A stretch of 64,000 bases of DNA, from NCBI RefSeq assembly GCF_001514065.1, contig NZ_KQ948432.1, forward strand, positions 203,632-267,631, in the 5' to 3' direction. A model generated the notes under the pieces. That model did not search any database. It saw nothing but the letters and a program-made list of their open reading frames with translations, and was not told the DNA's origin. Both the position numbers and the translations under genes were made by a program. The stretch is from Streptomyces antibioticus. GTDB lineage: Bacteria > Actinomycetota > Actinomycetes > Streptomycetales > Streptomycetaceae. This document shows, piece after piece, positions 8,180 through 17,694 of this stretch (the first letter of the stretch is position 1; each line of letters starts with the position of its first letter).

Positions 8180-9072
8180 CGCTCACGAAGGACGAGTCCG
8201 GCGCGGAGACGCCGGACCCGCTCGACCCGTACACGCCCTCCGCGCGGCGGCTGGAGCGCGAGCGCCACAAGCGCGCCCGCTCCCGCCGCGCCACGGCGAT
8301 CGCGGCCGTCTCGACGCTCGCCACCGCGGTCGTGCTCTATCTGGTCGTCGTCAACGCGCCGGGCTGGCCGCGCACCAAGGAGACCTTCTTCAACGGGCAG
8401 TACGCGCGCGAGGCGCTGCCCAAGGTCCTCGAAGGGCTCTGGCTCAACGTCCGGCTGCTGCTGATCTGCGGTGTGGCCGTGCTCGTCCTCGGCATGCTCA
8501 TCGCCGTCGCCCGCACGCTGCGCGGCCCGGTGTTCTTTCCGCTGCGCTTCCTGGCCGCCGCCTACACGGACTTCTTCCGCGGGCTCCCGCTCATCATCAA
8601 CCTCATGATCGTCGTCCTGGGCGTCCCCGCGCTGCGGCTCCAGGGCGTGACGGTCGACCCGGTGTGGCTGGGCGGCACGGCGCTGACGCTGACGTACTCG
8701 GCGTACGTCGCCGAGGTGTTCCGCGCCGGCATCGAGTCCATCCACCCCTCGCAGCGCGCCGCGGCCCGTTCGCTCGGCCTCTCCAACCGGCAGGCGCTGC
8801 GGTACGTGGTGCTCCCGCAGGCGGTACGGCGCCAGGTGCCCCCGCTGCTCAACGACCTGGTGTCGCTGCAGAAGGACACCGGGCTCGTGTCGATCGGCGG
8901 CGCGGTGGACGCCGTACGGGCCGCCGACATCATCGTGGGCCGCAGCCTCAACTACACGCCGTACATCGTCGCGGGCCTGGTGTTCGTGGCGCTGACCATC
9001 CCGATGACCCGCTTCACGGACTGGGTGACGGCGCGGATGGACCGGCGGCGGGCCCAGGGAGGGATCGCATGA
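8176..9072 (+). CDS. Amino acid ABC transporter, permease
   Basis: A 298-aa inner-membrane permease of the His/Glu/Gln/Arg family. A cytoplasmic N-terminal stretch rich in Arg and Glu precedes the first membrane segment (ATAVVLYLVVVNAPGW). Several further helices follow, and the EAA loop that contacts the ATPase reads RAAARSLGLSNRQALRYVVL. It starts at the GTG overlapping the binding-protein stop and its own stop overlaps the ATPase ATG. A single permease gene is present, so the channel would be a homodimer. Confidence 0.93.
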   Translation: MTLTKDESGAETPDPLDPYTPSARRLERERHKRARSRRATAIAAVSTLATAVVLYLVVVNAPGWPRTKETFFNGQYAREALPKVLEGLWLNVRLLLICGVAVLVLGMLIAVARTLRGPVFFPLRFLAAAYTDFFRGLPLIINLMIVVLGVPALRLQGVTVDPVWLGGTALTLTYSAYVAEVFRAGIESIHPSQRAAARSLGLSNRQALRYVVLPQAVRRQVPPLLNDLVSLQKDTGLVSIGGAVDAVRAADIIVGRSLNYTPYIVAGLVFVALTIPMTRFTDWVTARMDRRRAQGGIA

Positions 9073-14447: not shown

Positions 14448-15449
14448 TCAGGCGTCGATGCTGTCCTTCGGAGCGCCATCGCTCCGCGTCTGCGCCGCCT
14501 CGGCCGCCGCCTGCTTCTTGGAGGCGCGGAGGCTGGTGATCGTGGTGACGATCAGGACACCGCAGATCACGCCGAGGGAGACCGGGATGCTGATCTCGGG
14601 GACGTGGACCCCGGACTCGTGCAGCGCGTGCAGGACCAGCTTGACGCCGATGAAGCCGAGGATGATCGACAGACCGTAGCTGAGGTGGACCAGCTTCTTG
14701 AGCAGGCCGCCGATGAGGAAGTACAGCTGGCGCAGGCCCATCAGGGCGAACGCGTTGGCCGTGAAGACGATGTACGGGTCCTGGGTCAGGCCGAAGATCG
14801 CGGGGATGGAGTCGAGGGCGAAGAGCACGTCGGTGGTGCCGATCGCGAGCATCACGACCAGCATCGGGGTCATGACCCGCTTGCCGTTCTGCTCGATCCA
14901 CAGCTTGGTGCCGTGGTAGCGGTCGGCGACGCCGAAGCGGCGCTCGACGGCCTTGAGGAGCTTGTTCTCCTCGAACTCCTCGTCGTCCTCGTCGGCGCGG
15001 GCCTCCTGGATGAGCTTCCAGGCGGTCCAGATCAGGAAGGCGCCGAAGAGGTAGAAGACCCAGGCGAAGCTGGCGAGGATGGCGGCGCCCGCGGCGATGA
15101 AGATCGCCCGCAGGACCAGGGCTATGAGAACGCCGACGAGGAGCACCCGCTGCTGGTACTGCGAGGGCACCGAGAACTTCGCCATGATCAGGACGAAGAC
15201 GAAGAGATTGTCGACGCTCAGCGACTTCTCGGTGATGAAGCCCGCGAAGAACTCTCCACCGGCCTGGCCGCCGCCGAAGATCAGCAGGCCGAGGCCGAAG
15301 AGGCCGGCCAGGGCGATCCACACGACCGTCCAGATTCCGGCTTCCTTGATGGACACGTCGTGCGGCTTGCGGCCGATGAAGAAGTCGACCGCGATGAGGG
15401 CGGCGAGGCCCACGATGGTCAGGACCCACAGGGTCACGGAAACATCCAC
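14448..15449 (-). CDS. terC: TerC-family integral membrane protein, manganese-riboswitch controlled
   Basis: A 333-aa TerC/Alx-family membrane protein with about nine helices. Conserved acidic residues lie in membrane segments: ALIAVDFFIG, LSVDNLFVFVLIMAKF and IGTTDVLFALDSIPAIFGLTQDPYIVF. TerC proteins are linked to tellurite resistance and, for Alx/MeeF/MeeY relatives, to manganese efflux and metalation of exported proteins. The GTG at 15449 was chosen because GGAGG lies just upstream and translation then begins VDVSVTLWVL. Residues ~155-170 form an acidic cytoplasmic loop (ADEDDEEFEENK). The 5' leader holds a yybP-ykoY-type aptamer, so expression should rise with Mn2+. Confidence 0.95.
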   Translation of the reverse strand: MDVSVTLWVLTIVGLAALIAVDFFIGRKPHDVSIKEAGIWTVVWIALAGLFGLGLLIFGGGQAGGEFFAGFITEKSLSVDNLFVFVLIMAKFSVPSQYQQRVLLVGVLIALVLRAIFIAAGAAILASFAWVFYLFGAFLIWTAWKLIQEARADEDDEEFEENKLLKAVERRFGVADRYHGTKLWIEQNGKRVMTPMLVVMLAIGTTDVLFALDSIPAIFGLTQDPYIVFTANAFALMGLRQLYFLIGGLLKKLVHLSYGLSIILGFIGVKLVLHALHESGVHVPEISIPVSLGVICGVLIVTTITSLRASKKQAAAEAAQTRSDGAPKDSIDA

Positions 15450-15497
15450 TGATCCTCCGGCATTACGTAACGGCAAATAACCAGCGTCGTCGCGCTG

Positions 15498-15604
15498 CCG
15501 GAGGTCTCTTCCACCCAAGGTGGGCCGACGCCCCGGGAGCAGATCCATGGGGATCTGTTCCGTATTGACGGGTACGCCGCATCGACAGGGAGTACTCCCC
15601 TCCG
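15498..15604 (-). promoter_or_regulatory. yybP-ykoY manganese riboswitch upstream of terC
   Basis: On the minus strand the leader contains CGGAGGGGAGTACTCCC, then CCCGTCAATACGG, then AGAGACCTCCGGC. These are the diagnostic GGGGAGUA, CCGUCAAnAC and AGACCU elements of the yybP-ykoY aptamer (Rfam RF00080), in order. P1 forms between CGGAGG (15604-15599) and CCTCCG (15504-15499). The P1 3' strand CCTCCGGC (15504-15497) is also the exact complement of GCCGGAGG (15461-15454), the terC Shine-Dalgarno. This predicts a translational ON switch with Mn2+. The aptamer identity is recognised by motif; the switching model is inference. Confidence 0.88.
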
Positions 15605-15684
15605 TGAGGAAAACGGTACCCCAATCACCAAGGAAAGGTAAAGCGATTGGCAAAAGAGAGGTCAAAGAGCCTGATCAGAGGCCT

Positions 15685-17694
15685 TTACGTGTACTTGGTG
15701 CGGGCCGCCGCCACCTGATTGAGCACCTGCTGGAGCACCTGGCTGCCCTGCGGCACGAGCGAGGGCTCGTACGTCCAGGCGTGCCCCACCCACGGGTCGG
15801 CGAGATGGTCGTCGGGCACCGGGCTCAGTCGCAGCAGCGAACGCCACAGCGGGTCGAGCAACGGGCCGTACGCGGAGGCCTCCTCCCGGTCCGCGACCAT
15901 CATCAGATGGACGCCGACCGCCGGGCCCTCGTCGGCGAGGTAGCGCAGCTGGTTGACGGCGCGGTCGTCGAAGCCGTGCGGGAAGTCGTTGACGATCAGC
16001 AGCTGCTCGGAGGTGTCGAAGCCCGGCGGGAGCGCGTCGGGCGCCCCTCCGCGCACCGCCATCTGCACCAGGTCGACGCGCTGCGTGAGGCGGGCCAGGA
16101 CGTCCACGACACCGGCCGCGCCGAGGGCCGGCGGGCCGGCGAGCACACCGGTCTGCACCAGCGGGACGAGCGCCTGTCCTCCGGAGCCGGCCGGGTCGAT
16201 GACGTGCACGGTGAACTCGCCCGCCGGATAGACGGCGAGCAGCCGGGCCGCGTGCGCCACCGCCGACTCCATCGCCAGCCGCTTGAGTTCATGGGAGTCG
16301 GTGAAGGAGCCGTCGAGCGAGTCGGCCCGTCCGCTGTCGATCCACAGCCCGCGCTCCAGCGGCAGCCTGACCAGCATCGGGATACGCAGCTGCGGGGCCT
16401 CGGGAAGATGCAGGTCGCCCAGGCGCAGGGCCATCGGGATCTCCATCGGCACCCGGTAGCCGTGCCAGACGGGGTTGTCCCAGCGGGCGTAGGCCGCGGG
16501 CAGCGCGGGCTCGACGACGTCGGCCTCGGCGGTGAGCTGGGCGAGGTCCCGGTCCAGAGCCGTACGGGCCTGGTCGACGAGCTGGGTGTGCTTGGCGCGG
16601 GCCGCCTCGCGCGCGGCGTCGCTCTGACCGCCGATCCGGCTGCGCGGGTCGGACAGGGCCTGGTCGAGTTCCTTCTCCATACGCGAGTCGGCGAAGTCGA
16701 CGGCGCTGCGGTACGCGGCCATGGTGCGGGCCAGGTCCTCGAACATGCCCCACACCTGGTTGTAGAGCCGCTCGTCCATGGACCAGCCGGTCGCGTCCCC
16801 TGCGACGGGCTGCGCGGGCTGTCCGGGCTGGGCCGGGGGCGCGGTCGGCGGGGGTGGCGGCGGGGCGGTGGTCTGGCGGCGCGGGTGGCTGTAGTCGACG
16901 GGACCGCCGGTGGTGGAGCCGGGCTGCGGGGCGGCGGACGGGTCCGTGGCGGCCGGGGTGCCGTAAGGCGAGGCCGGTGGCTGGCCGGGGACGCCCGGTG
17001 CCGGGGTGCCGTAAGGCGACACGGGCGGGGGCGGTACGGCCCCCTGAGCCGCAGCGCCGCCCTGGTCGGCACCGAGGGTCGGGGCCGCCGCGTGCCGGGT
17101 GCGGTCGCCATCGGTCGTGCGGGGCGCCTGCACCGAGCGGGCGAGGCCCTGGGCGACGGCGTCGTTGATACCGGCGGCCAGTTGCCGGGCCTCGGGCAGG
17201 CCCTGGTCGGCGAAGAGGTCGGCGAGACCGCCCGCGTATCCCTGGCCGACGGCACGGACCTTCCAGGCGCCCTGGCGACGGTAGAGCTCCAAGGCGACGA
17301 CGGCGGACTCGGCCTCCAGGCCGGTGATGGTGTAGTTGGCGACCTCGGAGCCGTCGAGGCCGGTGACCGCGAGGAAGGGGGCGGCGAGGCCGCCGAAGCT
17401 GACAGGCCCGCCCACCCCGGTGGGCAGGGCGATCAGCACGCTGATCCGGTGCACGGCCTCCGGCATGGCGCCGAGGTCCACCGCGAGACGGTGGGCGGCG
17501 GCGGCCTGCCGGGAGACCTCCAGGCCCGGCAGGGTGGGGGCGCCCGGGTGGGCCACCCACTCCACGCCGTGGACCTTGCCGTGCTCGTCGCTGAGCGTCG
17601 CGCCCGCCACGACCGGCTGGCCGGCCGAGACCCGGATCTCGAGGCGGGCCTGGGAGAGCGGGTGGTTCTGCCCCCGCACCAGCTCGGCCGTCAT
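15685..17694 (-). CDS. TerD-domain protein with C-terminal FtsK/HerA-like ATPase-fold region lacking a P-loop
   Basis: A 669-aa two-part protein. Residues 1-180 form a TerD/CABP-type domain (LEIRVSAGQPVVAGATL, GLDGSEVANYTITGLEAE, ALELYRRQGAWKVRAVGQGYAGGL). A Pro/Gly/Thr-rich linker (~195-295) follows. The C-terminal half has a helical segment, then GDLHLPEAPQLRIPMLVRLPLERGLWIDSG, and a Walker B-like LLIVNDFPHGF. This resembles FtsK/SpoIIIE-type ATPases, but the expected GxxxxGK[ST] is absent at the ~400 position. TerD proteins are Ca2+-binding stress proteins that work with TerC and TerB. A strong hairpin separates it from the next terD. Confidence 0.75.
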   Translation of the reverse strand: MTAELVRGQNHPLSQARLEIRVSAGQPVVAGATLSDEHGKVHGVEWVAHPGAPTLPGLEVSRQAAAAHRLAVDLGAMPEAVHRISVLIALPTGVGGPVSFGGLAAPFLAVTGLDGSEVANYTITGLEAESAVVALELYRRQGAWKVRAVGQGYAGGLADLFADQGLPEARQLAAGINDAVAQGLARSVQAPRTTDGDRTRHAAAPTLGADQGGAAAQGAVPPPPVSPYGTPAPGVPGQPPASPYGTPAATDPSAAPQPGSTTGGPVDYSHPRRQTTAPPPPPPTAPPAQPGQPAQPVAGDATGWSMDERLYNQVWGMFEDLARTMAAYRSAVDFADSRMEKELDQALSDPRSRIGGQSDAAREAARAKHTQLVDQARTALDRDLAQLTAEADVVEPALPAAYARWDNPVWHGYRVPMEIPMALRLGDLHLPEAPQLRIPMLVRLPLERGLWIDSGRADSLDGSFTDSHELKRLAMESAVAHAARLLAVYPAGEFTVHVIDPAGSGGQALVPLVQTGVLAGPPALGAAGVVDVLARLTQRVDLVQMAVRGGAPDALPPGFDTSEQLLIVNDFPHGFDDRAVNQLRYLADEGPAVGVHLMMVADREEASAYGPLLDPLWRSLLRLSPVPDDHLADPWVGHAWTYEPSLVPQGSQVLQQVLNQVAAARTKYT

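Follow-up and report, generated by a model that had tools for sequence, protein, structure and literature searches.

The window, a stretch of 64,000 nucleotides from Streptomyces antibioticus, contains a terC gene whose leader (15604–15498, minus strand) is flanked by a TerD-domain gene (15685–17694, PF02342) and by terC itself (14448–15449). A sequence-only reading of the window had described this leader as a manganese riboswitch made up of five short elements, and all five were found again in place. The features of the locus are as follows, from the promoter to the gene.

15613..15642, minus strand: probable promoter, with TTTACC at 15642–15637, an 18-nt spacer and TACCGT at 15618–15613; inferred from sequence and present in most of the terC upstream regions compared
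15498..15604, minus strand: yybP-ykoY (Mn2+) aptamer in a three-way-junction form, from covariance model R1 and covariation in relatives, without a match to RF00080
15599..15604, minus strand: P1 5' strand CGGAGG; P1 pairs kept in 97.5% of cells
15600–15593, minus strand: GGGGAGTA, re-read from the window
15593..15598, minus strand: L1 5' strand GGAGTA (GGAGUA), identical in 87 of 87 aligned elements
15589..15591, minus strand: P1.2 5' strand TCC, with its partner GGA at 15512–15510; 99.6% of cells paired
15580..15588, minus strand: single-stranded linker at the position of P2 in classical members
15526..15579, minus strand: P3 arm, with CGGCG 15579–15575/CGTCG 15530–15526 and CCCG 15572–15569/CGGG 15535–15532, then L3 and P3.2
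15571–15562, minus strand: CCGTCAATAC, re-read from the window
15562..15568, minus strand: L3 TCAATAC (UCAAUAC), 7 nt; CA at positions 2–3 in 87 of 87 aligned elements
15513..15525, minus strand: P4 hairpin, GCCCA 15525–15521/TGGGT 15517–15513
15505..15509, minus strand: L1 3' strand AGAGA
15507–15502, minus strand: AGACCT, re-read from the window
15504–15497, minus strand: CCTCCGGC, re-read from the window
15496..15504, minus strand: switch strand CCTCCGGCA, whose ON partner is the P1 5' strand and whose OFF partner is 15462–15454
15482..15497, minus strand: small hairpin CAGCG/CGCTG, lying after the switch strand and before the ribosome site; its pattern resembles a terminator, but its T run is poor
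15454..15462, minus strand: TGCCGGAGG, the ribosome-binding site (GGAGG 15458–15454) and OFF-state partner
15461–15454, minus strand: GCCGGAGG, re-read from the window
15449–15447, minus strand: GTG start codon of terC, re-read from the window
14448..15449, minus strand: terC, 333 amino acids, GTG start, TGA stop (Pfam PF03741, E=9.5e-53)

Judging from the promoter-like sequence, transcription probably starts at about 15606–15604, at the 5' edge of P1. A scan for the sigma-70 consensus gave 0 sites. The stretch TTTACCTTTCCTTGGTGATT (15642–15613) occurs once in the window and recurs with small changes upstream of the leader in many relatives. Its conservation exceeds what a plain promoter needs, and it is possibly the site of a regulator.

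The yybP-ykoY class of manganese riboswitches was reportedly defined by two papers in 2015. It is already known that RNAs of this class precede terC genes. One before terC is described for Vibrio (PMC13274385), and PMC3766115, which covers Corynebacteriaceae and Mycobacteriaceae among other groups, places tellurium-resistance-type genes in yybP-ykoY regulons. An article about ANTAR RNAs mentions in passing that sequencing found yybP-ykoY riboswitches in Corynebacterium and Streptomyces, citing studies of C. glutamicum and S. coelicolor (PMC8164766). No paper devoted to the Streptomyces terC switch was found in the literature searched, a body that has most subscription journals outside it. A Mn2+ homeostasis gene downstream is a trait of the class, and in the window this gene is terC, with its PF03741 domain.

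The sequence-only reading had proposed a search with the Rfam model RF00080 and had named the lack of a hit as one of two outcomes that would speak against it. RF00080 had no match in the window at its gathering score, none in the 1.3 kb around the leader (14900–16200) at E<=10, and none in nine actinobacterial loci at E<=1. The E. coli controls fared little better – at E<=1 the alx leader went unreported, and mntP scored 41.6 bits against a cut-off of 45. Because of these two controls, the miss was read as a weakness of the model and not as a lack of kinship.

A second covariance model, R1, was built from the terC leaders of 17 relatives only. R1 matches the aptamer of the window, which is itself within the training set, with 92.6 bits (E=3.9e-16), and it recovers the E. 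coli alx leader with 41.9 bits (E=4.1e-7); in E. coli mntP there was no match at E<=10. Ten loci have sub-threshold matches to RF00080, and R1 recovers all of them except L044 and L046, with E between 6e-8 and 2.4e-5. Comparison with reference proteins assigned six of the genes after these eight loci to the UPF0016 type and one to the cation exchangers; the gene after L037 is of the Na_Ca_ex family. Two weak RF00080 matches in the genome of the window (L001 and L002, E 3.0 and 4.1), without an R1 match at E<=10, were dropped. With the terC-leader model recovering alx, and with helices, L1 and L3 in agreement with the published aptamer, the earlier identification of the aptamer is supported.

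R1 matches 143 of the 246 genomes of the class sampled (actinomycetes), each with a best E of 2.4e-4 or lower, while RF00080 has 0 matches over its cut-off and 10 at E<=0.01 in the same genomes, a comparison that is not even-handed because R1 was trained on the actinomycete group. The present RF00080 model has a blind spot for actinomycete members, as these searches show. R1 also matches 34 of the 198 genomes in a sample of the phylum, 21 of these 34 outside the class, and the evidence for a spread beyond Actinomycetota comes from E. coli and one Halotalea locus. A pattern scan of contigs matched at least 120 stretches. From the many further R1 matches in the class, 40 were hand-picked for their spread over genomes, and four loci (L056, L059, L061, L064) were left out as the same places as L007, L013, L010 and L014. 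The large alignment holds 87 R1 matches, 86 of them distinct (one duplicate was left out).

P1 is closed by GAGACC in the window, and the arrangement of GGAGUA on the 5' side of L1 and (A)GACC on its 3' side, next to P1, is the pattern expected of the class. The 3' strand of L1 is AGAGA in 60 of the 87 aligned elements, GGAGA in 13, CGAGA in 11 and GAAGA in 2, with one gapped. Helices P1, P3 and P4 are likewise class traits, and all three are supported. For the 86 distinct elements, in a test that favours the structure because the alignment was fitted to the model, 24 of 29 pairs have changes on both sides (P1 4 of 6, P1.2 3 of 3, P4 5 of 5), 96.3% of cells are paired versus 34.3–54.3% for slid structures, and 0 of 500 shuffles reach any of five covariation measures. 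A MAFFT alignment of the 17 terC leaders has two-sided changes in 10 of 29 pairs and 96.3% of cells paired (at most 52.7% when slid); 0 of 500 shuffles reached four of the five measures and 9 of 500 the fifth. P1 and P1.2 are invariant in this set of 17 and so are uninformative on covariation there.

One trait of the classical members, a four-way junction with a hairpin P2, was not found, a point on which the sequence-only reading did not remark. The linker from P1.2 to P3 is 4–13 nt long in the 73 terC elements (median 5), and in none of the 73 does it fold a hairpin of at least 3 bp. Among 14 elements not associated with terC, one (L037) has a P2, and the alignment shows a P2 in mntP. Published aptamers are drawn as a four-way junction, in the portion available of PMC11087558, and a review, likewise in part, gives a three-way junction for the Streptococcus pneumoniae mgtA member (PMC9495176). 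The trait is not strictly defining: alx, as we read it, also lacks P2 and a three-way junction is reported for mgtA, so there are precedents for this variant. One gammaproteobacterial locus, L122 of Halotalea alkalilenta, has the exact actinobacterial pattern with the same type of L3, a 6-bp P2 and a CCTCCGG/CCGGAGG switch; this likeness is possibly due to transfer or to deep conservation.

The window element resembles the E. coli alx leader in having the same L1, the GAGACC strand, P1 as the switch helix and a gene of the TerC family downstream. The two also share a type of L3 (UCAUUAC in alx, UCAAUAC in the window) and, by our own reading of the alx sequence, which has a linker of 4 nt at that place, the lack of P2. 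They differ in the sequence of P1, P3 and P4 and in GC content; in alx the P4 region is long and the expression platform longer, whereas the window element has a 9-bp helix between the P1 3' strand and the ribosome site. Corynebacterium glutamicum, also an actinobacterium, has before its terC gene cg2157 a yybP-ykoY leader that is described as predicted and as transcribed. This leader passed an older Rfam model, with 49.13 bits for RF00080 (PMC3890552), whereas the Streptomyces element fails the present one. The S. pneumoniae mgtA element is similar in its three-way junction, as the partial text of the review has it (PMC9495176), but controls an ATPase.

With the Lactococcus lactis and Xanthomonas oryzae riboswitches, which have crystal structures, the window element shares the docking of L1 and L3, an L3 of 7 nt whose third position is an invariant adenosine, and a switch helix (P1.1); they differ from it by their four-way junction with P2 and by their action on transcription (PMC6754395 and PMC11087558). 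L3 is ACAUACU in X. oryzae and UCAAUUC in L. lactis. PMC6754395 gives the L. lactis L3 sequence in part, and in its available sections the Mn2+ contact in the solved aptamers is the A of the CA in L3, A41 in L. lactis and A48 in X. oryzae. A15566 in the window corresponds to this adenosine.

The sensing of another divalent ion, or of pH, in place of Mn2+ is unlikely. The element is known from sequence alone, alx responds also to alkaline pH (PMC9603457, in part), and the streptococcal mgtA member binds Ca2+ tighter than Mn2+ according to the review excerpt (PMC9495176). However, the element keeps L1 and L3 and has the Mn2+-contacting adenosine in its place (PMC6754395), and the gene downstream belongs to the TerC family, some members of which are Mn exporters (PMC10550928).

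The sequence-only reading had also pointed out that the 3' strand of P1 is complementary to the Shine-Dalgarno sequence of terC. This is true, and the complementary stretch is in fact 9 bp long, CCTCCGGCA against TGCCGGAGG, with 4 nt between GGAGG and the GTG codon. The 8-mer alone proves little because it is not rare in the window, where it has 15 copies compared to 11.8 expected (19 of 100 shuffles reach 15). It is the position of the complement, recurring from relative to relative, that goes beyond chance. Among 72 distinct terC loci, the switch strand can form 6 or more Watson-Crick pairs with a site 4–16 nt ahead of a start codon in 62, 7 or more in 58 and 8 or more in 45. In 100 shuffles of the downstream regions of these loci, at least 6 pairs were reached by a mean of 4.5 loci (maximum 9) and at least 7 pairs by a mean of 1.4 (maximum 4). 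The other 10 of the 72 fall short of 6 pairs; a switch at these loci would have to operate in some other way, if it operates.

Since any GGAGG can pair with CCTCC, loci with unlike 8-mers also had their partners exchanged as a further control. The switch strand has a mean of 7.71 pairs with its own partner and 5.82 with a swapped one, and the maximum of 200 swaps was 6.17. Sixteen loci have an unusual P1 strand; set against the usual strand, their own is the better partner in 8 cases, the poorer in 5 and an equal one in 3. Examples of the better pairing are L099 (CCTCGAAC/GTTCGAGG) and L107 (CCTTCGGCAGC/GCTGCCGAAGG). The P1 5' strand and the ribosome site compete for one 3' strand by a pairing that is conserved and co-varies, and the switch that had been proposed is borne out to that extent. 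This competing pairing, the conserved aptamer fold and the kinship to the alx leader are all computed directly.

In the window the switch strand has two possible partners, the P1 5' strand (6 bp, −9.4 kcal/mol for the duplex) and the ribosome site (9 bp, −17.7 kcal/mol). Folded without ligand, in an energy model that has no tertiary contacts and no ion, the OFF state is the minimum (−81.4 kcal/mol versus −72.6 with P1 forced, a gap of 8.8), and the GGAGG bases are paired with a probability of 0.99–1.0. A gap of this size suggests that Mn2+ would have to act during synthesis of the RNA, at a time when the ribosome site has yet to emerge.

It is highly probable that the leader is a yybP-ykoY manganese riboswitch that turns on the translation of terC. 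We infer Mn2+ as the ligand, the direction of the switch, control of translation over transcription, and kinetic control during transcription. Transcription would begin at about P1. At low Mn2+, the P1 3' strand CCTCCGGCA would pair with TGCCGGAGG and the ribosome site would be hidden; with enough Mn2+, the docking of L1 and L3 around the ion would keep P1 closed, leaving the ribosome site free so that TerC would be made. E. coli mntP is reported to be turned on in this way, by Mn2+ closing P1 and so leaving the ribosome site free, and a translational alx-lacZ reporter rose 3- and 6.5-fold with 1 and 2 mM Mn (PMC9603457 for both). Counted against this explanation are the RF00080 miss, the miss of mntP by R1, the 10 of 72 terC loci without the pairing, the mixed outcome in the 16 loci with an unusual P1 strand, the 13 of 30 terC loci of the family that do without the aptamer, and an OFF state 8.8 kcal/mol below the P1-closed state, which is much for one ion at equilibrium. 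The two complementary 8-mers offer a clean target for a mutational test.

A manganese riboswitch could also act on transcription, with the hairpin at 15497–15482 or Rho stopping the polymerase at low Mn2+. A scan for terminator-like patterns found one in the window leader (shuffle mean 0.3), namely this hairpin, and in another actinobacterial branch, L039, which precedes a UPF0016 gene, a strong hairpin and T run by our reading follow the aptamer. The hairpin of the window, however, has a poor T tail (GTTATTTGCC) and can form alongside P1, and the competition that is conserved concerns the ribosome site. Since the sole terminator-like hairpin has a poor T run, the transcriptional version is the less likely one, and we consider it improbable.

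The leader could alternatively be coding, as an N-terminal extension of TerC to a TTG at 15665, and the ORF 14448–15665 is indeed open through it. But just 33 of 73 relatives have a terC frame that stays open across the aptamer, which excludes a coding origin for practical purposes; the length of the aptamer modulo 3 is spread over 27, 26 and 20 loci, the conserved pairs co-vary as RNA, and we give this reading the slimmest of chances. A chance line-up of motif words and an 8-mer in GC-rich DNA, where the 8-mer is common and RF00080 has no match, is refuted by the comparative data, as R1 matches 92 of the 101 Streptomyces genomes sampled and both the helices and the switch strand co-vary.

By the preferred explanation, terC would be under the control of Mn2+ in most Streptomyces, given the R1 matches in that genus. 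A wider proposal is conceivable but rather doubtful: that E. coli alx and the actinobacterial terC leaders form one TerC-linked subclass of Mn2+ riboswitches without P2 (a three-way junction), with an L3 of UCANNAC type, largely missed by the present Rfam model. Its switch strand and the ribosome site would have evolved together throughout a bacterial class, its far stabler OFF helix would place the decision during transcription, and, like alx, it might respond to alkaline pH as well.

Most of the class-search R1 matches examined (61 of 67) precede terC. Other genes found after R1 matches include those of PGPGW-family and GreA/GreB-family proteins and proteins without a Pfam match. Three matches (L071, L085, L093) precede genes of about 280–290 amino acids that have no Pfam family and are not terC, and these are possibly a new Mn-related gene. 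A copy of the leader with 73% identity lies at 8517–8664 in a 23-kb plasmid record of Streptomyces clavuligerus, NZ_CP065251.1, at a place with no annotated feature.

TerC was found in 59 of the 61 genomes of the family sample. The aptamer was present by a strict pattern in 17 of 30 terC loci of the family and absent in 13, which is not a frequency, the 30 loci being the best TerC matches; terC can thus do without the aptamer. Twelve of the 13 aptamer-less loci (L015, L019, L020, L022–L025, L027–L029, L034, L036) keep a promoter-like TTTAC/TTGG, and in these twelve the leader is short or the start is nearly at the gene, as with ...GTACCGTTCCGGGGATGGACG in L023. They are apparent natural losses of the riboswitch, and loci with a lost leader would serve as natural controls. 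Upstream of terC in L017, CGGAGGGG, CTCCTCCGG and GCCGGAGG remain and L1, L3 and GAGACC are gone, with no R1 match at E<=10; this is a decayed leader, perhaps a half-lost switch. The genome of the window has a second terC copy (L003, C6:177924–178880), 79% identical and without an R1 match in its piece, so that a constitutive and a Mn-controlled copy may stand side by side.

Six loci (L041, L042, L043, L045, L039, L040) form a second type of actinobacterial Mn riboswitch, with an L3 like ACANNCU/ACAUACU and a P1 of GAAGG, before genes for UPF0016-type exporters. The L039 leader has a hairpin with a T run at its end, which suggests transcriptional control at that locus.
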